DNA of 12,146 bases from an uncultured Oscillospiraceae bacterium (GTDB taxonomy: Bacteria; Bacillota; Clostridia; Oscillospirales; Acutalibacteraceae): contig URQJ01000041.1 in the NCBI GenBank assembly GCA_900549945.1, positions 1 through 12,146 on the forward strand, read 5' to 3'. The position numbers were made by a program, and so were the translations under genes. The first letter of the stretch is position 1. Each line of letters starts with the position of its first letter. Shown in pieces: positions 2,327 to 11,812 of the stretch. The notes beneath the pieces were generated by a model. The model made no database searches. It worked only from the letters and a program-made list of their open reading frames with translations, and was not told the DNA's origin.

Positions 2327-3217
2327 TTATTGGGCTTTTTTCTCCAGTGTTTCCAAGGCGTGGAGCACGTCCCCGATGTCGCCGTTTATGCAGACGGCCT
2401 GCCGGCTGATCTCCTGCGGGCAAACGGCCTCGCCGTTGTTGACCGAGACGTAAACCGCCTGCGGGTTGGCGGCCGTCATCTGCCAGAAAGGATATTTGAT
2501 GATGCCGGGGGTATTATAGCCGACGCCGAGTTCTAAGAACAGGATGCGCTGGCTGCGCCGCGAGCGCAGAAAAGCGGCGTATCGCTCGGATGCACGGTGC
2601 CAACCCGCATCCTCCACAAAGGCTTGGTCGGCCCGCAGATTCATGGTTAGGGGCTTTCCGCAGTGCGGGCAGACGGGCAGCAGGGCGGAGGGGATGCGCA
2701 TATCCCGCTGCTGTTCGAGCATTTTTAGAATCGCACCGCGGTTGTCAAAGGTTTCCGCACAGCACGGCTCGGCACACTGAAAAAGGCCGTAGTCGCCCTG
2801 CGTGTAAAACAGGCGCTTTTTATCGAAGCCGGCTTTTTGAAAGCAGTGGTCGACGTTGGTCGTCAGTACAAAGTAATCCTTGTTCTTTATGAGCCGCAGC
2901 AGGGTGCCGTACACGGGCTTCGGCGCATCCATATAGCGGTTTACATAGACATAGCGGCTCCAGTAGGCCCAGTATTCCTCCGGCGTTTTATACGGATAGA
3001 AACCGCCGGAATACATGTCGTGAAAGCCGTATTTTGCTTCGAAATCGGCAAAGCTGCTGCGGAAGCGCTCGCCGCTGTAGGTGAATCCCGCCGAGGCGGA
3101 GAGTCCCGCGCCGGCGCCGATAACGACGGCGTCCGCCTGAGAAAGGCTCTCCAGAACCCGCTCAAGGCTCTTGGAGCAGGCGGCTGTAGATTGTATAGTC
3201 GATGTCCTTGAAAACAT
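2327..3217 (-). CDS. Class M sirtuin (SirTM), probable protein ADP-ribosyltransferase
   Basis: 296 residues, cytoplasmic, SIR2 fold. The NAD-binding loop is GAGAGLSASAG (34-44) and TTNVDHCFQKAGF (119-131) follows. At the place where deacetylating sirtuins carry the catalytic His-Gly, this protein has Gln140-Gly141 (YTQGDYG). Zinc ligands are probably C148 with C152 or C153, and C183/C186 (CPHC). The Gln substitution and the adjacent macrodomain gene are the marks of the SirTM class, shown in Staphylococcus and Streptococcus to ADP-ribosylate a lipoylated GcvH-like protein. No GcvH-like gene or lipoate ligase is visible here. The ATG at 3217 has a GAGGTG ribosome site, so the gene overlaps the macrodomain gene by 56 bases. 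It is the last gene of the operon. The target in this organism is unknown. Confidence 0.9.
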   Translation of the reverse strand: MFSRTSTIQSTAACSKSLERVLESLSQADAVVIGAGAGLSASAGFTYSGERFRSSFADFEAKYGFHDMYSGGFYPYKTPEEYWAYWSRYVYVNRYMDAPKPVYGTLLRLIKNKDYFVLTTNVDHCFQKAGFDKKRLFYTQGDYGLFQCAEPCCAETFDNRGAILKMLEQQRDMRIPSALLPVCPHCGKPLTMNLRADQAFVEDAGWHRASERYAAFLRSRRSQRILFLELGVGYNTPGIIKYPFWQMTAANPQAVYVSVNNGEAVCPQEISRQAVCINGDIGDVLHALETLEKKAQ

Positions 3218-3941
3218 TGAAAATCACCTCTATAGAACTGTTTGTCTGCTGGATGTAATCCCTTACGGTCTGCACGGCGATCGCCGCGGCGGATTCATTT
3301 GGAAAGTGAAATTCGCCGGTAGAGATGCAGCAGAACGCGATGCTTTTGACGGCGTTTTGCTCTGCGAGCGCCAAACAGGAGCGGTAGCACGACGCGAGAA
3401 GCGCCCGGTCTCGGTCGGTAAGCCGGCCGCGCACGACCGGGCCGACAGTGTGCAGGACGCAGCGGCAGGGCAGGTTGAAGGCCGGTGTGATCTTGGCGTG
3501 GCCCGTTTCCTCGGCGCACCCCTGCTGTGCCATGATTTTGGCGCAGGCGGCTCGGAGCTGCACACCGGCATAGGTGTGAATGGCATTGTCGATGCAGCCG
3601 TGATTCGGGTGAAAGCAGCCGAGCAGGCCGCTGTTTGCGGCGTTTACGATCGCATCGCATTTCAGCGCGGTGATATCGCCCTGCCACAGATACAGGCGGT
3701 CCCGTACAGGCCGGAGTGTGCGGTAGTCGACGACACCCTTTTGCTCGGTCTCCGCTTGCAGGTAGGCGTCCTGCACCCTTAAAAAATCCGGGCGGGCCGC
3801 AAGCGGCGGACGTACGTTGAGCAGTGCCCGCAGAAGCAGGCGCTGTGCCTGCTTGTCCTCCGGAAGCGCCGTCTCCCTGTACTGCGGCTGTTCGGCGAGC
3901 AGCGCGCCGATCAGAAAACGTCTCCGCTCATCCTGTGTCAT
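3162..3941 (-). CDS. Zinc-dependent macrodomain, protein-ADP-ribose hydrolase
   Basis: 259 residues, the usual length of the zinc-macrodomain proteins paired with SirTM. An N-terminal helical extension (1-80) precedes the macrodomain: WQGDIT (86-91), NAANSGLLGC (100-109), then the zinc-macro signature C109, H114, C116 followed by IDNAIH, and the phosphate loop STGEFHFP (207-214). Known members remove ADP-ribose from proteins modified by the partner sirtuin, making the modification reversible. The start at 3941 overlaps the stop of the upstream 75-residue gene as ATGA, which indicates translational coupling; the frame stays open upstream, but that part has no macrodomain-like sequence. The gene overlaps the sirtuin by 56 bases. 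The family assignment is firm; the substrate is inferred from the partner. Confidence 0.92.
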   Translation of the reverse strand: MTQDERRRFLIGALLAEQPQYRETALPEDKQAQRLLLRALLNVRPPLAARPDFLRVQDAYLQAETEQKGVVDYRTLRPVRDRLYLWQGDITALKCDAIVNAANSGLLGCFHPNHGCIDNAIHTYAGVQLRAACAKIMAQQGCAEETGHAKITPAFNLPCRCVLHTVGPVVRGRLTDRDRALLASCYRSCLALAEQNAVKSIAFCCISTGEFHFPNESAAAIAVQTVRDYIQQTNSSIEVIFNVFKDIDYTIYSRLLQEP

Positions 3942-4165
3942 ACGGCATCCTCCTTCCGGCACGGCGCCGCCTCCGGATCGCCGGAAAAGTCCCAAACGCC
4001 GATTCCGGCGCCGGCGTCCAATCTTCTGCCGATTTTTTCCGGCGCGGTAAAAATTGCGACCACACCCGTGGAGATGATTTGCGGGGCCTCGAGAATTGAT
4101 TTGCAGAGGCTTTCGCCCGGATCGACGCGCAGGTAGAGCGTGCCGTTCATCATTCTGTATTCCAT
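3938..4165 (-). CDS. Small protein of unknown function (75 aa), translationally coupled
   Basis: 75 residues starting MEYRMMNGTLYLRVDPGES, acidic at the C-terminus, no signal peptide and no membrane segment, two Cys. It begins 6 bases after the flavin reductase stop and ends in an ATGA overlap with the macrodomain start; this placement, rather than homology, is why it is called a gene. The first 20 or so residues recall the N-terminus of PPC/DUF296 domain proteins (MEY-R-x-G-x-x-x-x-R-x-D-x-GE), but the protein is about half their length and the rest does not follow the family, so this may be chance or a truncated relative. Starts at 4153 or 4150 (Met5, Met6) are possible because the ribosome site before 4165 is weak. 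It could be a partner or target of the ADP-ribosylation pair, which is speculation. Confidence 0.55.
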   Translation of the reverse strand: MEYRMMNGTLYLRVDPGESLCKSILEAPQIISTGVVAIFTAPEKIGRRLDAGAGIGVWDFSGDPEAAPCRKEDAV

Positions 4166-4171
4166 AGATTT

Positions 4172-4711
4172 TCACGTGCCTTTCTTTTCGTCCTGTACCA
4201 GAACCCGCAGAATTTCGCCGACATACATCTCGTGAAAATCCTGCTTCGGATAATTGAAGGGGATCAGGGCGGTGTCTGCAAAACCGGCCGCTGTGAGCGG
4301 TGCATGGTAGAGCTTCCGGCAGATATAGACCGTACTGGCCTCTTCGAAAAAGACGGTGCCGTGCGCATAGACGGGCGTCAGCCCGGCCCGCACAGTTTTA
4401 TCCCCATTCCGGCCGGAGTGGCTGCCAAGATACCCGAGCGCTTGTTTGAAGCCGCCGCCAAAGTGAGACAATGCGAAATATGGCTCGCGATCCAAAAAAG
4501 CCTTGGTGTATCGGCTGGGACGAACATAACAGACCGCCGTGGGCAGCCGGTTCGCATGGCTGCCGCGTTCCCAAAGCGTGCCGAAATTCCCCCAAGCGAC
4601 CGTCATTGCATTGAAGCCGATTTCTTCTGTTCCGGCGGAAAGTGCCATCCAGTCGTCCCCGAATGCGGTGAATGGGTTCAGTGACAGTGCTTTTACTGAG
4701 ATTTCCTTCAT
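4172..4711 (-). CDS. Flavin reductase family protein (FMN-binding split barrel, flavoredoxin-like)
   Basis: 179 residues, cytoplasmic. Family features are NAMTVAWGNFGTLWERG (34-50), a PTAVCYVRPSRYTKAF segment, YFALSHF, the SHSGRNGDK loop, and the late motifs EASTVYICRKLYH and FHEMYVGEILRVL. Such proteins bind FMN and either reduce free flavin with NAD(P)H or carry electrons to a partner. Its start ATG shares one base with the nitroreductase stop (TGATG), a typical coupling arrangement. Placed after a radical SAM enzyme and a nitroreductase, it may supply electrons to one of them. The subfamily is clear; the electron partner is inferred from position only. Confidence 0.88.
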   Translation of the reverse strand: MKEISVKALSLNPFTAFGDDWMALSAGTEEIGFNAMTVAWGNFGTLWERGSHANRLPTAVCYVRPSRYTKAFLDREPYFALSHFGGGFKQALGYLGSHSGRNGDKTVRAGLTPVYAHGTVFFEEASTVYICRKLYHAPLTAAGFADTALIPFNYPKQDFHEMYVGEILRVLVQDEKKGT

Positions 4712-5309
4712 CAGTCAATGCCTCCCACGCGCAGGATACGGCCGGGGTTCCGGGGCTTCGGCGTGGGGTGCGCGTCTCCGGGCCGCGGGTATCCGAGCAA
4801 AAGCTGCATCACAGCGTAGTAATCCGTCCGGATGCCCCAGCGGCGCAGGATATCCTGACCGTACGGGTCGGCGAAAGCCGTCCAGCCCTGCCCGATGTAG
4901 CAGGAGCCGACGCCGAGAGATTCCGCCGCGAGCATCATGTTTTCGGCGGCAGCGGCGCAGTCGTCTGTGGAAAAAAGGAAGTTCTTCGGCGCAAAAAGGG
5001 TGATCACCGTCGGCGCGTCATAAAAGGCATTGCGCAGATTGGGGTCGTCCGCAATACTCGGCTGCTCTTTGGAGACATAGCTCGCCGCTGTCGCCATGCG
5101 CGGGCTGGAATTTGCCCGCTTTATTCTGCCGAGGCGTTCGTTGACCGCGCGGTCCTGACAGACGGCAAACAGCACGCCCTGCCGGCCGCCCGCGCTCGGC
5201 GCGTACAGCCCGGCCTGCAGGATCTGATCCAGGTATCCTCCGGAAGCTGCTTTGTGTCGAACCGCCGGATGGAACGCCGGTGCAAAATGGTCTGTATCGT
5301 TTCGTTCAT
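4711..5309 (-). pseudogene. Nitroreductase family protein, interrupted by a single frameshift
   Basis: Joining two frames gives a protein of about 199 residues, normal for the FMN-dependent nitroreductase family. The first 26 residues (MNETIQTILHRRSIRRFDTK then QLPEDT) carry the family HRRSIRRF motif. The continuation lies in another frame: DQILQAGLYAPSAGGRQ, then MMLAAESLGVGSCYIGQGW and the end GRILRVGGID. The break is at about 5231-5233, where one base appears to be missing (ACC-TG-GAT for ACC-xTG-GAT). No slippery heptamer is visible there, so this is a real deletion or an assembly error rather than programmed frameshifting. The start lies 1 base past the radical SAM stop and the stop overlaps the flavin reductase start, so the intact gene clearly belonged to the operon. 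The role would be FMN-dependent reduction or oxidation, possibly of the modified peptide. Confidence 0.85.
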
Positions 5310-5310
5310 G

Positions 5311-6345
5311 TCAGTCAATCTCCTTCCAGCACTGTGGGTCGGCGGCGTAAAAATCCCCGTCCCTGCCGCTTGCAACGGCCGGACAGCCCCGGCACCACGC
5401 CTTGAGCACGCATTTGGCGCATTTTTCGAACCGATCGTAATCGCGGTAGCGTTCCATTTGGCAGACCCAAACGTCCGCGATCCGATCCTGAAATACGTTG
5501 CCGACTTTGCTGTTCTGCACGCGGCGGCAGGCGTACAGGTCGCCGGTCGGCAAAATGGTCATGTGGCAGTTTCCGCAGTTGCATCCGCCGTAGATCGTGC
5601 CGGGCTCAGCCGCCTCGGGAATCTTGAACGCACCGGTCTCGTACGCGTACAGCGTCCATAGGTGATCCTTTTTATTGAAGTAGGTCTTGCAGCCTGCCGC
5701 CTCGTACACCTTGAATTTCCGGTCGCACTCCGCCAGAAGCCGGCGGTAGCGCAGCGGCTCGATGCCCACGTCTTTTTCCTCGCTCGTGGGGCAGTAGCGC
5801 GCAAAGGCGAATACATCCGCGCCGGCCTTCACAACGGCGTCGATGATGTCCGGAACCTCGTCGATATTGGCGCCGGAAACCGTCGTCATTACCACACTGC
5901 GGATCCCGGCGCGGTTGATGCAGCCGATTTTTTCCAGCGTGACCGCAAAGCTGCCGGGCTTGCGGAACCAATCGTGCGTGCGCTCCATGCCGTCCAGCGA
6001 GAGCTGGTATTTTTGGCACCCGCAGGCTTTCAGCCGCGTGCACACTGCGTCGTCCAGATGGAACGGATTGCCGAGGATGGTGAAGGGGAGGCCGTGCGAT
6101 TTCATCAGCTCGAGGAGCCTCCAGAAATCCGGGTGCAGGATTGGGTCGCCGCCGGTGATATAAAAATAGGGCAGCCGATTGTTGACAGAGCAGAAATCGA
6201 GGCACTTGTAAAAGGTTTCCTCGAGCTGTGCCCAGCTCATGGAATCCAGCTTTTTGCAGCTGTTTTCCGAGAAGATGTAGCAGTGCTTGCACCGCTGGTC
6301 GCACGCATCGGTGATGTGCCACTGAAAGGCAAAGTATTGCTTCAT
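5311..6345 (-). CDS. Radical SAM/SPASM domain protein, ACGX peptide system (probable RiPP maturase)
   Basis: 344 residues, cytoplasmic. The radical SAM cluster motif is C15-x3-C19-x2-C22 in ITDACDQRCKHCYIF; GGDP (65-68) is the SAM-binding GGE-like motif. The C-terminal SPASM region is Cys-rich: C255, C257, C260, C273, then C309, C312, C318, C321 and C339, enough for two auxiliary iron-sulfur clusters. Enzymes of this architecture install thioether or other cross-links in ribosomal peptides. The short gene just upstream encodes a peptide with ACGX repeats, the kind of substrate that NCBI/TIGRFAM names link to a 'radical SAM/SPASM domain protein, ACGX system' (from memory). A GAGG ribosome site lies before the ATG. 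The enzyme class is firm; the chemistry performed is not known from sequence. Confidence 0.93.
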   Translation of the reverse strand: MKQYFAFQWHITDACDQRCKHCYIFSENSCKKLDSMSWAQLEETFYKCLDFCSVNNRLPYFYITGGDPILHPDFWRLLELMKSHGLPFTILGNPFHLDDAVCTRLKACGCQKYQLSLDGMERTHDWFRKPGSFAVTLEKIGCINRAGIRSVVMTTVSGANIDEVPDIIDAVVKAGADVFAFARYCPTSEEKDVGIEPLRYRRLLAECDRKFKVYEAAGCKTYFNKKDHLWTLYAYETGAFKIPEAAEPGTIYGGCNCGNCHMTILPTGDLYACRRVQNSKVGNVFQDRIADVWVCQMERYRDYDRFEKCAKCVLKAWCRGCPAVASGRDGDFYAADPQCWKEID

Positions 6346-6371
6346 ATATAGAAAACCTCGCTTTATAAGAG

Positions 6372-6421
6372 ACCGGCATCTGCCGGTGTGTATTCGGGAA
6401 TTCCCGGCAGAGCGCCGGGAA
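6372..6421 (-). promoter_or_regulatory. Two hairpins between the precursor peptide gene and the maturase gene
   Basis: The 90 bases between the two genes hold a stem TTCCCGGC (6401-6408) with GCCGGGAA (6414-6421), loop of 5, and a second stem ACCGGC (6372-6377) with GCCGGT (6382-6387), loop of 4. Neither is followed by a T-run on the minus strand. Structures here could protect the precursor mRNA or reduce read-through, giving more peptide than enzyme, as seen in many peptide-modification operons. Confidence 0.5.
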
Positions 6422-6435
6422 CCGCAGGGACGGAA

Positions 6436-6660
6436 TTATTTGTCGCCGGCGCCGCAGGCGGAACCACAGGCTGCGGGCGTTTCCTCCGGCTTATCGCCGG
6501 TGCCGCAGGCGGAACCACAGGCCGCGGGCGTTTCCTCCGGCTTGTCGCCGGCGCCGCAGGCGGAACCGCAGGCCGCGGGTATTTTCTCCGGCTTATCGCC
6601 GGCGCCGCAGGCGGAAACCGCCGTCTGATCGTTCCATCCGAAAAGATTGGAGAGTGCCAT
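6436..6660 (-). CDS. ACGX-repeat Cys-rich peptide, probable RiPP precursor
   Basis: 74 residues. An N-terminal leader of about 16 residues (MALSNLFGWNDQTAVS) is followed by a core with seven Cys, each one in an A-C-G context: ACGA, then ACGS-ACGA, ACGS-ACGT and ACGS-ACGA, separated by the linker GDKPEETPA. The unit is 17 residues (ACGAGDKPEETPAACGS). There is no signal peptide or hydrophobic segment. A GGAGG ribosome site stands 9 bases before the ATG, and a TATAAT -10 box lies further upstream. It is the first gene of an operon whose second gene is a radical SAM/SPASM enzyme. This layout and the repeat name match the 'ACGX-repeat peptide' families I recall from NCBI. The mature product and its function are unknown; the many Cys suggest cross-linking to neighbouring residues or metal binding. 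Confidence 0.85.
   Translation of the reverse strand: MALSNLFGWNDQTAVSACGAGDKPEKIPAACGSACGAGDKPEETPAACGSACGTGDKPEETPAACGSACGAGDK
6454..6606. repeat. Three tandem 51-bp direct repeats inside the precursor gene
   Basis: Units 6454-6504, 6505-6555 and 6556-6606 differ by only a few bases; partial copies flank them (6439-6453 and from 6607). 51 is a multiple of three, so gain or loss of a unit keeps the frame and changes the Cys number by two. Confidence 0.92.
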
Positions 6661-6723: not shown

Positions 6724-6752
6724 ATTATATCTTCGCGTACAAGTACGCACTT
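6724..6752 (-). promoter_or_regulatory. Promoter and operator of the ACGX peptide operon
   Basis: Minus strand -10 box is TATAAT (6729-6724); the expected -35 position (6752-6747, AAGTGC) is poor, suggesting that an activator is needed. A perfect inverted repeat, GCGTAC (6735-6740) and GTACGC (6743-6748), sits in the spacer and touches the -35 position. It is a natural operator for the divergently encoded HxlR protein. Confidence 0.6.
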
Positions 6753-6763
6753 TTTTATTACCC

Positions 6764-6781
6764 GGTTACTTTAAGGTGACC
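6764..6781. promoter_or_regulatory. Second inverted repeat between the divergent promoters (candidate HxlR site)
   Basis: GGTTAC (6764-6769) and GTGACC (6776-6781), arms matching in five of six bases with a 6-base spacer. It lies upstream of both the peptide-operon promoter and the hxlR promoter, where one bound dimer could act on both. Confidence 0.45.
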
Positions 6782-6884: not shown

Positions 6885-7208
6885 ATGCTGACAAAGGAGG
6901 AAATGCCCGCCTGCCCGGTCGCGACTACGGTGCAGCTGATCGGGAGCAAATGGAAGCTGCTGATCATGCGGAACCTGCTTGCGCGCCCGTGGCGCTTCAA
7001 CGAGCTTAAAAAGGATCTGGAGGGCATCAGCCAGAAAGTGCTCACGGACAGCCTGCGCTCGATGGAGGAGGACGGCATCATTACGCGCACGGTATACCCG
7101 GAGGTGCCGCCGCGGGTGGAATACGCGCTGAGCGCGCTGGGCGAATCGATGCGCCCGATCATCGGTGCGATGGAGGCGTGGGGCACGGCGTACAAGAATA
7201 ACCGCTGA
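6885..7208 (+). CDS. HxlR family winged-helix transcriptional regulator
   Basis: 107 residues, normal for the family. Core features are CPVATTVQLIGSKWKLLIMRNLL (split here as Cys10-Pro, IGSKWKLLIMRNLL at 19-32), RFNELKKDLEGISQKVLTDS (37-56) as the recognition helices, and RTVYPEVPPRVEYALSALG (68-86) as the wing. Cys10 lies where thiol-sensing members such as YodB and HypR have their redox Cys; those proteins control nitroreductases and quinone reductases in Bacillus. The ATG at 6885 has AAAGGAG upstream; an AAAGGAGG just before Met7 (6903) is too close to be used well. It is transcribed divergently from the peptide operon, which itself contains a nitroreductase, so local control is likely, perhaps in response to electrophiles or oxidants. 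That response is inference. Confidence 0.92.
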   Translation: MLTKEEMPACPVATTVQLIGSKWKLLIMRNLLARPWRFNELKKDLEGISQKVLTDSLRSMEEDGIITRTVYPEVPPRVEYALSALGESMRPIIGAMEAWGTAYKNNR

Positions 7209-7605: not shown

Positions 7606-7641
7606 ATTTAGAAAAAATAATAATTGTGTGAGGAAATCAAC

Positions 7642-8715
7642 ATGAGAAAAATCACTGCATTTGTTGTTGCCGCATTGCTTGCGGTATCGGTACTGACCGG
7701 CTGCGCGGGCTCGGAGCCGGAGCACTTTGCTTCAAAGAGCGAGGGAAAGAGCACAGCTGAAAGCAGCGCGGAAAGCGCCGCAGAGGAGAGCGGGAGCAGT
7801 ACCGATACGGCGCATTACCCGGTGACCGTTTCCAACTTCAACTATGCGAAGGAAGCGGTGGAGTACACCTATGAAAAAGCGCCGGAGCGCGTGATCACGT
7901 TCTGGTCGAATTCGATCGAGACGATGCTGGCGCTCGGCCTCGGCGACAGGATCATCTGCGCCGTCGGCATGGATGAGGACGCGGTTCTGCCCGAATTGCA
8001 GGACGAGCTCAAGAAATGTACGGAGAACATGGAGTATTACAACGACTTCAAGGATTCCAACGCGGCGATGAGCAAGGAGGCGGCGGTCATGATGGAGCCG
8101 GATTTCATTCTGGGCTGGCAGTCCTCGTTCTCGGATAAGACGATCGGCGACGTGGATTATTGGAACGAAAACGGCGTTGGCACCTACATGGCGCTCAATT
8201 CAAACAGCATCAGCGGGCAGCGCACACTGGAAAACGAATACGCGGATATTTTGAACATCGGCAAGATCTTCGACGTGGAGGATAAGGCGCAGGCGCTTGT
8301 GGATGAAATGCGCGCGGAGGTGGAACGCATAACGGCGGCTACCGAGGGACGCGAGAAGCGCTCGGTGCTGATCGTCGAGTTCATGAAGGATACGATCTGG
8401 GTGTACGACGACACGATGCTGGCCGGCGACATGGTAAAGGCGATGGGCGGCGACGTGATCAATGCCGGCGACATCGGCGCGGAGGATCTTCTGAATATCG
8501 ACCCCGAGGTCATGATCGTGATCGGCGATGAGACGGACGTGCAGTCGGTCATGGAGAATCCGGCCTATGCGAGCCTGCAGTGCGTCGAGAACAACGACGT
8601 GCATTCCATCGATCTGAGCGAGGTCTATACGAGCGGCGTGCGCACTATCCACGGCCTGAACCACATCGGGCAGATCCTTTACCCCGACCTGTACGCGGAG
8701 AATGAAGCGGAATGA
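7642..8715 (+). CDS. ABC transporter substrate-binding lipoprotein, corrinoid-uptake (BtuF-like)
   Basis: 357 residues. A lipoprotein signal is clear: MRKIT, a hydrophobic stretch, and lipobox LTGC with Cys21 as the lipid-anchored residue. A Ser/Glu-rich linker (22-58) joins it to a TroA/BtuF-type two-lobed domain: ERVITFWSNSIETMLALGLG (82-101), EPDFILGW (152-159), VLIVEF (242-247), NPAYASLQCV (306-315). GAGGAAAT precedes the ATG at 7642; an earlier in-frame start at 7624 would add six residues before the signal and lacks such a site. It is the first gene of a riboswitch-controlled operon and overlaps the permease gene (ATGA). Cobalamin or another corrinoid is the likely ligand from the riboswitch and the cbi genes; cobalt or iron complexes remain possible because family members look alike. 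Confidence 0.93.
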   Translation: MRKITAFVVAALLAVSVLTGCAGSEPEHFASKSEGKSTAESSAESAAEESGSSTDTAHYPVTVSNFNYAKEAVEYTYEKAPERVITFWSNSIETMLALGLGDRIICAVGMDEDAVLPELQDELKKCTENMEYYNDFKDSNAAMSKEAAVMMEPDFILGWQSSFSDKTIGDVDYWNENGVGTYMALNSNSISGQRTLENEYADILNIGKIFDVEDKAQALVDEMRAEVERITAATEGREKRSVLIVEFMKDTIWVYDDTMLAGDMVKAMGGDVINAGDIGAEDLLNIDPEVMIVIGDETDVQSVMENPAYASLQCVENNDVHSIDLSEVYTSGVRTIHGLNHIGQILYPDLYAENEAE

Positions 8716-9776
8716 CGGCGAAGAAAAAGGAAAAGCCGCTTTATCTTTTGGCATGCTTCGCGCTGCTTGCCGTGCTGCTCGGCTCGCTTCTGCTTGCCGT
8801 CACGATCGGCTCGGTGCAGATTCCGGTCGGCGACGCCTACCGCGTGATTCTGCACCGGCTCTTTGGGCTTTACGACGCTTCGGCGTACGGCGCCGGGCGC
8901 ATCCACGACGTGGTTTTGATGATCCGTCTGCCGCGTCTGATTCTGGCGGCGGCTGTCGGCATGGGGCTTTCGGTCAGTGGGGTCGTCATGCAGGCCGTCG
9001 TGAAAAACCCGCTCGCTGAGCCGTATGTGCTCGGCATCTCCTCCGGCGCGTCGCTCGGAGCAACGCTTGCGATTCTGCTCGGTGTGGGCGTGATATTCGG
9101 CGGAAATTATGTGGGCGTCACGGCCTGCATCGGGGCGTTTGCCATTTCGATCGCTGTGGTCGGCCTCGCGAACATCGGCGGCCGGGCGACCTCAGTGAAG
9201 CTGCTTCTGGCCGGTATGGCGCTCAGCGCGCTGTGCAGCGCATTTTCGAGCTGCGTCGTTTACTTTTCGAACGACCGCGATGCGACGCGGGAGGTTTCTT
9301 TCTGGATGATGGGCAGCCTTGCGGGCGCAGAGTGGGAGACAAATGCGGTGATCCTGCCGCTCACGGTGCTCGGCGTGCTGTTTTTCTGGACGCAGCACCG
9401 CACACTGAACCTGATGCTTCTCGGGGATGAGGCCTCCATCACGCTGGGCACAGATCTGCACCTTTACCGGCAGGTCTACCTGCTCGTCTCTTCTGTTCTC
9501 GTGGGCTTTGCGGTGTACTGCGCCGGGGTGATCGGCTTTGTCGGGCTCGTGATCCCGCATGTTGTGCGCATGCTGGTCGGCACGGACCACAAAAAGCTGG
9601 TTCCGCTCAGCGCGCTGACCGGCGCGGTGTTCCTCATCTGGGCGGACGTGCTCTGCCGCGCGGTGATCCCGGGCGTGGAGCTGCCGATCGGCATCCTGAC
9701 CTCAATCATCGGCGCGCCGTGCTTTATCTATCTGATGGCGCGCCGGCGGTACGGCTTTGGAGGAAACGAGGCATGA
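8712..9776 (+). CDS. FecCD/BtuC-family ABC transporter permease
   Basis: 354 residues, very hydrophobic, about ten membrane segments as usual for this family. Diagnostic pieces are RLPRLILAAAVGMGLSVSG (72-90), NPLAEPYVLGISSGASLGA (99-117), the late GFVGLVIPHVVRMLVG loop that couples to the ATPase, and PGVELPIGILTSIIGAPCF near the end. The start overlaps the binding-protein stop and the stop overlaps the ATPase start, both as ATGA, so the three importer proteins should be made together in fixed ratio. It forms the membrane channel for the complex brought by the lipoprotein. Confidence 0.94.
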   Translation: MTAKKKEKPLYLLACFALLAVLLGSLLLAVTIGSVQIPVGDAYRVILHRLFGLYDASAYGAGRIHDVVLMIRLPRLILAAAVGMGLSVSGVVMQAVVKNPLAEPYVLGISSGASLGATLAILLGVGVIFGGNYVGVTACIGAFAISIAVVGLANIGGRATSVKLLLAGMALSALCSAFSSCVVYFSNDRDATREVSFWMMGSLAGAEWETNAVILPLTVLGVLFFWTQHRTLNLMLLGDEASITLGTDLHLYRQVYLLVSSVLVGFAVYCAGVIGFVGLVIPHVVRMLVGTDHKKLVPLSALTGAVFLIWADVLCRAVIPGVELPIGILTSIIGAPCFIYLMARRRYGFGGNEA

Positions 9777-10579
9777 AAATCGCTGCGGAACAGCTTCATG
9801 CGGTACTCGGCCGGCGTGAGATCCTGAAGGGCGTGGACATGGAGGCCGGCGACCGCGAGTTCATCGGTGTAATCGGCCCGAACGGCAGCGGCAAGAGCAC
9901 GCTGCTGCGCTGCATTTACCGCGTGCTTTCCCCCGCGCAGGGCGCGGTTTATATTGACAGCCGGCCGCTTTCGGAGTACAGGCCCAAGGATTCGGCGCGG
10001 AAGATCGCCGTGGTGGCGCAGCACAACTACTATAATTTTGATTTTACGGTGCAGGACGTCGTGCTCATGGGGCGTGCGCCGCACAAGCGCGCTCTGGACC
10101 GCGACACGGCGGAGGACTATGCGCTCGTGCGTGAGGCGCTGGAAACGGTGGGCATGTCCGCCTTTGCCGAGCGCTCGTTTTCGTCGCTGTCCGGCGGCGA
10201 GCAGCAGCGCGTCATTCTGGCGCGCGCGCTGGCGCAGCAGACGCCGTGCCTGATTCTGGATGAGCCGACAAACCATCTCGACATCAAATACCAGCTCCAG
10301 CTTATGGATATTGTAAAGGCGCTGGACCGCACGGTGATCGCCGCGATTCACGATCTGAACATCGCGGCCATGTACTGCGACCGCCTGTATGCGGTGCAGG
10401 ACGGCCTGATCGTTGCGGCCGGAACGCCGGACGAGGTTTTAACACCGGAGCGGATCCGCACGCTCTATGAGGTGGACGCCGAGGTGATGCGGGACCGAAC
10501 CGGGCTCCTGCACATTCTGTACCATCCGCAGCATTCCGGTGCGCGGCAGGATGAGCCGGACAATCCAATCGAGACGTAA
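9773..10579 (+). CDS. ABC transporter ATP-binding protein of the FecE/BtuD type
   Basis: 268 residues, cytoplasmic ATPase of the importer. All motifs are intact: Walker A GPNGSGKST (35-43), Q-loop Gln83 in VVAQHN, signature LSGGEQQ (139-145), Walker B LILDEP (160-165), D-loop and switch His193 (AAIHDLN). The start at 9773 was chosen because GGAGG lies 9 bases upstream and the ATGA overlap with the permease fits; the frame is open further upstream, but that would lie inside the permease. The C-terminal tail (252-268) is polar and unlike the family core. It powers uptake together with the two preceding gene products. Confidence 0.94.
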   Translation: MKIAAEQLHAVLGRREILKGVDMEAGDREFIGVIGPNGSGKSTLLRCIYRVLSPAQGAVYIDSRPLSEYRPKDSARKIAVVAQHNYYNFDFTVQDVVLMGRAPHKRALDRDTAEDYALVREALETVGMSAFAERSFSSLSGGEQQRVILARALAQQTPCLILDEPTNHLDIKYQLQLMDIVKALDRTVIAAIHDLNIAAMYCDRLYAVQDGLIVAAGTPDEVLTPERIRTLYEVDAEVMRDRTGLLHILYHPQHSGARQDEPDNPIET

Positions 10580-10618
10580 GAGCACCATTGAATTTAGAAA
10601 AGAGGGAGAGGCGCGGCA

Positions 10619-10642
10619 ATGGCGCCGGAAACAGAGCTATGA
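10619..10642 (+). other. Mini-ORF (7 codons) coupled to the CGGC-protein gene
   Basis: An ATG at 10619 with GGGAG about 10 bases upstream opens a frame MAPETEL that ends in TGA overlapping the next start as ATGA. The ribosome site of the next gene is weak, so re-initiation after this short frame may drive its translation. It could be a chance arrangement. Confidence 0.35.
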
Positions 10643-10977
10643 AAAAAATCGCTGTGCTGAACTGCCTTCGGGCGAATGAGGTTTGCGCCGGTGTGGCCTG
10701 CCTGCAGGCATGGAATATAAAGGGGAAAGCCTTTGCACGATATGCGGGGCAGGAGGCGGAGCTGGCGGCGTTTATGCGCTGCAACGGCTGCGGGAAGGAT
10801 CCGCGTACGGATCGTGGCATGCGGGAAAAGCTGGATCGTCTGGTTTCGATCGGGGCGGACGCCGTGCATCTGGGCGTTTGTACGAAGAAGCGGGACGGAA
10901 CGCGCTGCCCGACGATCACCGCGGTCGTGCAGCTCCTGCGCGAAAGAGGCATACCCTGCATAGACGGCACGCATTGA
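10639..10977 (+). CDS. CGGC domain-containing protein, putative metal-binding
   Basis: 112 residues, cytoplasmic, ten Cys. It begins MKKIAVLNCLRANEVCAGVA and carries the motif RCNGCGKDPRTDRGMREK (here C-x-G-C-G in place of the named CGGC), then GADAVHLGVCTKKRDGTRCP. The CGGC family is thought to bind a metal through these Cys; no reaction is established that I know of. Its place between a B12-type importer and cobaltochelatase CbiK, all under one cobalamin riboswitch, suggests handling of cobalt or of a corrin precursor. This is inference. The ATG at 10639 is chosen because homologous sequence begins there; a frame open from 10588 would add 17 residues of no recognisable origin. Confidence 0.85.
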   Translation: MKKIAVLNCLRANEVCAGVACLQAWNIKGKAFARYAGQEAELAAFMRCNGCGKDPRTDRGMREKLDRLVSIGADAVHLGVCTKKRDGTRCPTITAVVQLLRERGIPCIDGTH

Positions 10978-11035: not shown

Positions 11036-11812
11036 ATGAAAAAAGCGCTGCTTGCCGTCAGCTTCGGCACAAGCGTGCCGAAGGCGCGGGAGGGTATTGC
11101 CGCCGTTGAGGCGGCGCTGAAGGCGCAGGCACCCGAGCTGGATTTTTACCGCGCCTTTACGAGCCCCAAAATCCGCGCGATATGGGAAAAGCGCGGGGAA
11201 AGCATCCCGGATCTTGCCGGCGCGCTCGAAAGGCTGGGGGCTTTGTCCTACGAACAGGTTTTTGTGCAGCCCACCCACTTGCTGTACGGCTTTGAGTATG
11301 ACAAGGTCAAGGAGACGACGGAATGCTTTGCCGGCAGCTTTTCGCGCCTTGTGCTCGGAAAGCCCCTGCTTTCGGAAAGCGAGGATCTCCTGCGCCTTGC
11401 CGCTGAGGCGCAGGCATACCCGAGGCAGGCCGGAGAGGCGCTGGTTTGGCTTGGGCACGGAACGGATCACTTTGCGAATATGGTCTATCCGGCACTGCAA
11501 ACGGCGCTGCACCTCGCGCATATTGAAAGTGCGTTCGTCGGCACCGTAGAGGGGTGGCCCGCATTTGAGGATGTTCTCAGCGAGCTGCGCGCATCCGGCT
11601 GCCGAAGCGTCCTGCTGGCGCCGCTGATGCTGGTGGCCGGCGACCACGCGCTGAACGATATGGCGGGCGATGCGCCCGAGAGCTGGAAAAGCCGCTTAGA
11701 AGCGGCGGGATTCTCCGTATGCTGCGCTATGGAGGGGCTCGGCCTGCATCCCGGTATCCAGAATCTGTACCGCGACCATCTCAAGGCGCTTGTGGAACAG
11801 TATGGCGTTTGA
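11036..11812 (+). CDS. cbiK: Sirohydrochlorin cobaltochelatase
   Basis: 258 residues, the size of class II anaerobic cobaltochelatase CbiK. It inserts cobalt into sirohydrochlorin (precorrin-2 level) at the start of the oxygen-independent cobalamin pathway. Visible features are the N-terminal AVSFGTSVPKAREGI, the ERLGALSYEQVFVQPTHLL segment, His141 in WLGHGTDHFAN and His204 in VAGDHALNDMAGD, which correspond to the metal-binding His pair of Salmonella CbiK. No signal peptide, so it is cytoplasmic. An AGGAGG ribosome site precedes the ATG. It lies 58 bases after the CGGC gene and overlaps cbiD by 11 bases. Confidence 0.96.
   Translation: MKKALLAVSFGTSVPKAREGIAAVEAALKAQAPELDFYRAFTSPKIRAIWEKRGESIPDLAGALERLGALSYEQVFVQPTHLLYGFEYDKVKETTECFAGSFSRLVLGKPLLSESEDLLRLAAEAQAYPRQAGEALVWLGHGTDHFANMVYPALQTALHLAHIESAFVGTVEGWPAFEDVLSELRASGCRSVLLAPLMLVAGDHALNDMAGDAPESWKSRLEAAGFSVCCAMEGLGLHPGIQNLYRDHLKALVEQYGV

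Follow-up and report, generated by a model that had tools for sequence, protein, structure and literature searches.

The 12,146-nucleotide stretch of DNA analysed here (the window: contig URQJ01000041.1 of assembly GCA_900549945.1, from an uncultured Oscillospiraceae bacterium of the class Clostridia) carries a protein ADP-ribosylation pair, a class M sirtuin (SirTM) and a zinc macrodomain, at the end of an operon that begins with a cysteine-rich ACGX-repeat peptide and its radical S-adenosylmethionine (SAM) maturase. The same association is repeated in dozens of species genomes, commonly in the company of a divergently transcribed HxlR-type regulator and a shared putative operator. With middling confidence, we propose that this is a thiol- and electrophile-stress operon under a cysteine-based HxlR sensor, in which ADP-ribosylation would act on something other than the lipoylated GcvH-L protein that serves as its target in Staphylococcus and Streptococcus.

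Seven genes or reading frames lie on the minus strand between window positions 6660 and 2327. The peptide, a ribosomally synthesized and post-translationally modified peptide (RiPP) precursor, comes first (6436..6660) and is followed by the maturase (5311..6345), a nitroreductase-family gene (4711..5309), a flavin reductase-like gene (4172..4711), a 75-codon open reading frame (ORF; 3938..4165), the zinc macrodomain (3162..3941) and, last, SirTM (2327..3217). The packing, read off the window, is tight, neighbouring genes being 90, 1 and 6 bases apart or overlapping by 1, 4 and 56 bases. An earlier reading of this DNA, here called the original prediction, had placed the SirTM/macrodomain pair inside an ACGX operon, and family models together with matches to solved structures confirm the genes. 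All those that it named are present and closely packed, but the nitroreductase proves to be frameshifted and the 75-codon ORF rare and probably decaying; the divergent HxlR gene (6885..7208, plus strand) and the putative operator (6741..6780) were missing from it.

The neighbourhood survey suggested at that time was carried out on three genome sets that share a few genomes. A radical SAM profile search of GTDB species genomes supplied the best 80 of at least 554 loci encoding a relative (the 80-locus set), a class sample covered 391 Clostridia genomes (maturase above cut-off, SirTM at E 1e-30 or better) and a family sample covered 250 genomes of one family (SirTM at E 1e-60 or better). In the 80-locus set, SirTM is encoded downstream of the maturase at 38 loci; among the 58 loci with 4 kb or more of downstream sequence the number is 32, or 31 by a stricter ORF-based count. 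The class sample contains the maturase in 16 genomes (17 loci) and SirTM in 66; at 13 of the 17 loci SirTM follows within about 4 kb on the same strand of the contig. Every one of the 16 ACGX genomes encodes SirTM, compared with 50 of the 375 others (p 8e-14). In the family sample, where ACGX occurs in 28 genomes (29 loci) and SirTM in 114, SirTM is found within 5 kb downstream at 14 of the 29 maturase loci, one of these SirTMs (genome G617) having an internal stop, and two further loci (G495 and G505) are linked in a different orientation. SirTM is present in 24 of the 28 ACGX genomes against 90 of the 222 others (Fisher p 8.6e-6), a within-family statistic that leaves some kinship effects in place. 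Linkage by chance is expected at about 0.4% of loci, assuming 1.1 copies in 2.7 Mb. The three slightly overlapping sets rule out both chance and an artefact of one contig.

SirTM was recognized through its match to solved chain 5a3a (E 1.3e-72), which is listed as a 'SIR2 family protein' and which we take to be Streptococcus pyogenes SirTM; the Pfam SIR2 model gives 17.6 bits, under its cut-off of 24. Residues N121, Q140 and R195 (window SirTM numbering) are invariant among 13 aligned SirTMs and were matched by order and spacing to Asn118, Gln137 and Arg192 of the S. pyogenes enzyme, all three of which are described as important in the sections available to us of the paper by Rack and co-workers (PMC4518038). 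The motif TTNxD...QG[DE]YG, with the QG whose Gln replaces the catalytic His in class M, is present in 34 of 36 SirTMs, the remaining two being truncated, and by alignment the window protein has the catalytic residues predicted for class M. The macrodomain scores 357 bits against NF003163 (cut-off 272), the model for protein-ADP-ribose hydrolases, and its best solved relatives are the hydrolases 5kiv (E 1.6e-72), 8rsl and 8rsi (E 6.3e-72), presumably Zn-macrodomains themselves. A GC...CIDNxIH-type motif, which we take to be the zinc site, occurs in 26 of 27 macrodomains; with the score above cut-off, this predicted site places the window protein in the zinc macrodomain family. As expected of a SirTM linked to a Zn-macrodomain, the two genes overlap in the window. 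Among 105 macrodomain/SirTM pairs, with start codons set by rule, 35 have an overlap of 56 bases between the macrodomain end and the SirTM start, and 30 have one of 50 bases. In the 80-locus set, the macrodomain accompanies SirTM in 23 of the 32 SirTM-bearing loci with at least 4 kb downstream and not in the other nine; in the sampled genomes it lies within 0.5 kb of SirTM at 20 of 26 ACGX-linked loci and at 80 of 90 other SirTM loci.

A defence system, involving an anti-phage sirtuin or a viperin, was considered and rejected, as PADLOC gave no match of weight: zero model matches at E 0.001 for SirTM and the macrodomain, partial pVip matches of 49.8 and 31.4 bits for the radical SAM protein and, for a ferredoxin-containing partner described below (PNPOx-ferredoxin), BrxP at 20 bits across the ferredoxin part.

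Both components of the ACGX system exceed their NCBIfam cut-offs. The peptide (74 residues, seven Cys, each followed by Gly) scores 80.4 bits against TIGR04341 (cut-off 28), and the radical SAM/SPASM maturase (344 residues) scores 586 bits against TIGR04340 (cut-off 400). Extraction by rule yielded 67 peptides from 81 loci (the 80 plus the window), and in 66 of these every Cys stands within Cys-Gly. The second NCBIfam match of the maturase is TIGR04082, SbtM (163.8 bits, cut-off 350); SbtM is described, in the part of a review at hand, as removing four hydrogens from a peptide Cys to form a thiooxazole (PMC11002830). The resemblance to this thio(seleno)oxazole system lies in SbtM being the next-best family of the maturase and in its acting on peptide Cys, but the score is far below the cut-off and SbtM model positions 1-197 are unmatched, so that the window maturase does not appear, from its profile match, to belong to the SbtM system. 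Peptides with repeated Lys-Cys-Gly motifs that are given 5-thiooxazoles by MNIO enzymes bind copper, according to the excerpt consulted (PMC12668002). These captophorins/bufferins likewise carry numerous Cys-Gly repeats within a single stress-linked peptide, but they are made by the nonheme-iron MNIO enzymes, whereas the Clostridia system uses a radical SAM enzyme. Taken together, the second-best SbtM match and the copper-binding thiooxazole Cys-Gly peptides make a thiooxazole-type ACGX peptide a lead rather than a result. Fusions of the ACGX maturase to a nitroreductase domain in one 553-residue protein were seen in P0067, P0070, P0080 and P0084 and support a direct functional pairing of the two. 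Genomes G303 and G645 have two ACGX maturase loci each, of which one in each was seen linked to SirTM.

A tree was calculated from 116 SirTMs (115 from the class and family samples plus that of the window; the split SirTM of G617, L179, was left out because of its length). Its rows are uneven, nearly all linked loci being included and the unlinked loci of the family sample only in part, and its bootstrap is not fully settled. On this tree the ACGX-linked SirTMs do not group together as a clade but occur in two deep lineages, within one of which two linked loci, L180 and L181, have SirTM preceding the macrodomain. The linked label changes 19 times, at least 12 of these changes being forced by well-supported branches; shuffled labels average 23.7 changes and were as low as 19 in only one of 500 shuffles, so the label is somewhat clustered.

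These results bear on the suggestion, made in the original prediction, that the ACGX peptide itself is the ADP-ribosylated target. In that case the matured peptide would replace lipoyl-GcvH-L as a thiol carrier and would be switched off and on by SirTM and the macrodomain. The recurrent linkage and the genome-level co-occurrence of ACGX and SirTM speak for this, as do the 13 linked class-sample genomes in which no GcvH was detected (see below) and the Asp or Glu found soon after about half of the Cys-Gly motifs, GcvH-L being modified on Asp in the account of which we have a part (PMC11490716). However, no ACGX maturase lies within 5 kb of SirTM at 90 of the 116 sampled loci, the linked SirTMs form no clade and some ACGX genomes lack any SirTM. 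The peptides are, moreover, alike in length, Cys number and acidic motif whether SirTM is adjacent (31 peptides) or not (36), with Asp or Glu in the residues just after Cys-Gly in 110 of 211 and 117 of 228 motifs, respectively. The suggestion is thereby weakened, and we regard the peptide as an unlikely target.

The operon is flanked by a regulator that fits a stress function. The divergent HxlR/DUF24-type protein (6885..7208, plus strand; PF01638, 107.8 bits) has one N-terminal Cys (ACPV) and gives 116.9 bits with the RrpB-like redox regulator model, below its cut-off of 175. A divergent HxlR gene is present within 3 kb in 57 of the 68 loci with at least 1.5 kb upstream, and an N-terminal Cys motif (C-x-V) in 120 of 127 HxlR relatives; the domain and the conserved Cys are those predicted for an HxlR/DUF24 redox regulator. 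Bacillus subtilis DUF24 regulators sense HOCl, quinones and diamide through their N-terminal Cys, and azoreductase and the nitroreductase YodC act in the detoxification of diamide and quinones in that organism, as stated in the portion consulted of PMC6943732.

Between the HxlR gene and the operon lies a two-box putative operator (6741..6780, minus strand), which reads GTCAC-N6-GTAAC-N14-GTGCGTACTT in the window and is conserved as GTNAC-N6-GTNAC-N14-GTGCKTACTT. Under a counting rule slightly looser than this consensus, both boxes were found in 55 of 91 ACGX-locus regions (a group that takes in every HxlR-like gene of the 80 loci, even those distant from the operon) and in 17 of 32 from SirTM loci that lack ACGX; the second box, counted by itself, appears in 79 of 91 and 21 of 32, respectively. 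One region under 150 bases was dropped from the count. Single boxes occur in shuffled sequence at under 0.4%. Three regions outside both groups gave none with both boxes and two with the second. The loci covered contain 100 two-box sites, of which 68 precede an operon with an ACGX maturase, 24 precede genes for a macrodomain, PNPOx-ferredoxin or SirTM, and eight precede no labelled gene. An HxlR gene of the same kind is found within 5 kb in 35 of the 90 SirTM loci without ACGX. A different regulator, of the Rrf2 type, is nearby in 18 of these 90 (L127, L131, L154, L155, L157, L158, L193-L195, L197 and others).

The presence of the same kind of HxlR and the same putative operator at SirTM operons without ACGX, and equally at ACGX loci without SirTM, would also be expected if two independent stress functions were clustered in one HxlR regulon with no biochemical contact between them, and the coming and going of the linkage across the SirTM tree agrees with this. 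Co-occurrence nevertheless persists where the genes are unlinked: in the 80-locus set, 42 genomes show no linked SirTM in the sequence covered, yet 28 of them encode one elsewhere, and the excess in the family sample (24 of 28 against 90 of 222) counts linked and unlinked copies together. A shared lifestyle could give the same result. We rate co-regulation alone as a rather improbable explanation.

Redox enzymes fill the middle of the operon. A frequent order is HxlR (divergent), ACGX peptide, radical SAM maturase, nitroreductase or a quinone-oxidoreductase-like zinc dehydrogenase, PNPOx-ferredoxin, Zn-macrodomain and SirTM. The best NCBIfam match of the zinc dehydrogenase is the PIG3 quinone oxidoreductase model (152 bits, cut-off 296.8). 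Of 58 loci, 52 encode either a nitroreductase or this quinone reductase, none encodes the two together and six have neither. In the window, the nitroreductase is frameshifted near codon 27: translation from the ATG at 5309 ends after 62 residues, and the remainder of the domain (PF00881, 66.3 bits) has to be read in a different frame. With that later frame as query, intact relatives were found at up to 88% identity (best 120 of 1995 matches); with no closer intact copy among the matches listed, a real mutation and a sequencing error are indistinguishable. The flavin reductase-like gene (PF01613, 26.4 bits, just below the cut-off of 27) occupies the slot often taken by PNPOx-ferredoxin; by tblastn it has a match in one of the 80 loci, a fragment in L027. 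Seven of 58 ACGX loci with enough sequence have a DUF5131 gene downstream, which in L017 (14703-15620) and L041 (9725-10600) comes directly after SirTM.

PNPOx-ferredoxin, a flavin mononucleotide (FMN) split-barrel-ferredoxin protein, might itself be the ADP-ribosylated target, with the flavin reductase in its place in the window. SirTM is downstream in 25 of 34 ACGX loci of the 80-locus set that have PNPOx-ferredoxin and in six of 24 that do not (p 0.0004), but this contrast is absent from the census set (17 of 20 versus 4 of 5, p 1.0), which led us to discard the gene as a marker of SirTM, and loci from related species are not independent. Away from ACGX, the gene is within 1.5 kb of SirTM in 20 of 90 loci but was not found within that distance in the other 70. 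We consider this target distinctly unlikely.

The stop codon of the 75-codon ORF, the other target put forward in the original prediction, overlaps the start codon of the macrodomain that follows, and this position is what commended it. The ORF matches nothing in Pfam or NCBIfam at E 0.1, and nothing significant in the 80 loci (best E 2.6). A search of about 5.8 billion proteins yielded three relatives: one near-identical, one lacking 26 residues and one frame-shifted. With two of its three relatives altered, the ORF looks lineage-specific and, on these comparisons, is probably rare and decaying; that its product is the target is scarcely credible. A suspected assignment to the start of a PPC/DUF296 domain was dropped on the same negative searches.

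The original prediction had also noted the absence of GcvH-L from the operon, and tblastn found no GcvH encoded in the window; LplA, the lipoate ligase, was not searched for by itself. On the GcvH side, the window thus departs from the extended SirTM operon with GcvH-L and lipoate ligase. Across 201 loci (200 plus the window), no GcvH-type gene was found at any ACGX locus covered. The sole case of an adjoining GcvH-type gene is L149 (genome G423), a clostridial SirTM locus without ACGX, whose detection indicates that the scan is able to see such cases; L149 also has ABC genes nearby and is nearer to the Staphylococcus arrangement.

The idea of another target would, by the original prediction, be overturned if GcvH-L and LplA2 were encoded in some other part of the genome and served SirTM there as they do in Staphylococcus, and relatives were searched for GcvH. 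No match at E 1e-8 was obtained in any of the 13 class-sample genomes with a linked pair, genomes that may be incomplete; they belong to a group of 46 searched at this limit, of which three, none of them among the 13, have GcvH. The 38 linked genomes of the 80-locus set are less uniform, with PF01597 matches at E 0.001 in 16 and above the Pfam cut-off in 10. Only five have a strong match (E under 1e-30; 124-138 residues), none of them inside a SirTM locus examined, and the remaining matches (E 4.5e-5 to 1e-3) cover part of the domain. Strong GcvH matches are thus lacking in most relatives. The five strong matches, the 10 above cut-off and the arrangement at L149 lend this explanation some support, but the empty class-sample genomes and the position of the strong matches outside the SirTM loci make it very improbable.

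The stress operon that we propose would consist of three modules, probably regulated by HxlR through the putative operator. In the first, the radical SAM/SPASM maturase would most likely turn cysteines of the Cys-Gly-repeat peptide into sulfur heterocycles or another thiol-derived group, and the modified peptide may scavenge oxidants, electrophiles or metal. The second would be a set of interchangeable reductases, a nitroreductase or a PIG3-like quinone reductase, often followed by the FMN split-barrel-ferredoxin protein. In the third, SirTM and the Zn-macrodomain would add and remove ADP-ribose on a stress-response protein of the pathway, which would stand in for lipoyl-GcvH-L, the target in Staphylococcus and Streptococcus. 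A stress setting has a precedent in the GcvH-L-type SirTM operon, which is activated by oxidative stress in the sections available of PMC4518038. The most probable target is a component, for instance a redox partner, that HxlR-SirTM operons have in common whether or not they include ACGX; it need not be the peptide. The prevalence of SirTM without ACGX, the lack of a clade, the likeness of the peptides and the inconsistent behaviour of PNPOx-ferredoxin narrow it no further than the regulon.

Several observations weigh against this proposal. No SirTM is nearby in 26 of the 58 ACGX loci with 4 kb downstream, and 14 of the 42 genomes without linkage have no SirTM at all; with most SirTM loci also lacking ACGX (the 90 of 116 given above), neither depends on the other. 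The two boxes occur together in only part of the regions in each group (the 55 of 91 and 17 of 32), kinship affects the within-family statistics, and co-regulation alone could account for the linkage. In the window itself the nitroreductase is broken and a PNPOx-ferredoxin gene was not seen.

Three further known systems invite comparison. The extended SirTM operon of Lactobacillales and Staphylococcaceae comprises GcvH-L, Zn-Macro, SirTM and LplA2 with OYE and LLM oxidoreductases. It shares with the ACGX operon the Zn-macrodomain/SirTM pair, the conserved catalytic residues, oxidoreductases within the operon and a probable oxidative-stress context; the ACGX operon, in contrast, is without GcvH-L and has a RiPP, a radical SAM enzyme, a nitroreductase or quinone reductase, often PNPOx-ferredoxin, HxlR and the putative operator. 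Minimal SirTM/Zn-Macro pairs, as in Enterococcus faecalis and Treponema pedis, likewise have no GcvH-L and no known target (from the part available of PMC11490716), but the ACGX-linked pair sits in a larger recurrent operon with a radical SAM peptide system. The NCBIfam ACGX system itself (TIGR04340 and TIGR04341) is represented in the window above both curated cut-offs; its model names, however, extend only to maturase and peptide, and a link to SirTM, the macrodomain, HxlR or the operator is in no text that we found.

The occurrence of SirTMs in Lachnospiraceae, Clostridiaceae and other groups is already recorded, with SirTM pairs forming either independent or extended operons, the GcvH-L operon being one type (Rack and co-workers; PMC4518038, in part). 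In 2024, SirTM had GcvH-L as its sole known target, and what other SirTM/Zn-macrodomain systems modify was unknown, as far as the accessible text of PMC11490716 goes. Among the matches listed from the open-licence PubMed Central literature, no paper dealt with the ACGX system or paired SirTM with a radical SAM enzyme; the original prediction, likewise, knew of no description of the combination.

The surroundings of the operon hold further genes. Downstream of SirTM and on the same strand is a TetR-family regulator (1424-2086). Beyond HxlR are a FecCD/BtuCD-type ABC importer (binding protein, permease and ATPase; 7624-10579), a CGGC-domain protein (10588-10977) and a CbiK-type cobaltochelatase (11036-11812), which suggest the uptake of a corrinoid or a heme-type metal compound.

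A recurrent operon of gut Clostridia, with a shared putative operator and mostly without GcvH, provides a short list of candidate SirTM targets, and an uncharacterized RiPP family gains a probable physiological setting in thiol and electrophile stress. It is tempting, though doubtful, to go further and see here a second, GcvH-L-independent class of SirTM systems in Clostridia, in which an O2-independent, radical-SAM-made thiooxazole-type Cys-Gly peptide would be the thiol or metal scavenger, an anaerobic counterpart of the captophorins, switched by SirTM and reset by the Zn-macrodomain through ADP-ribose on the modified peptide or on a redox partner. The ACGX-SirTM operon points, in any event, to use of the ADP-ribose switch beyond its sole known target.

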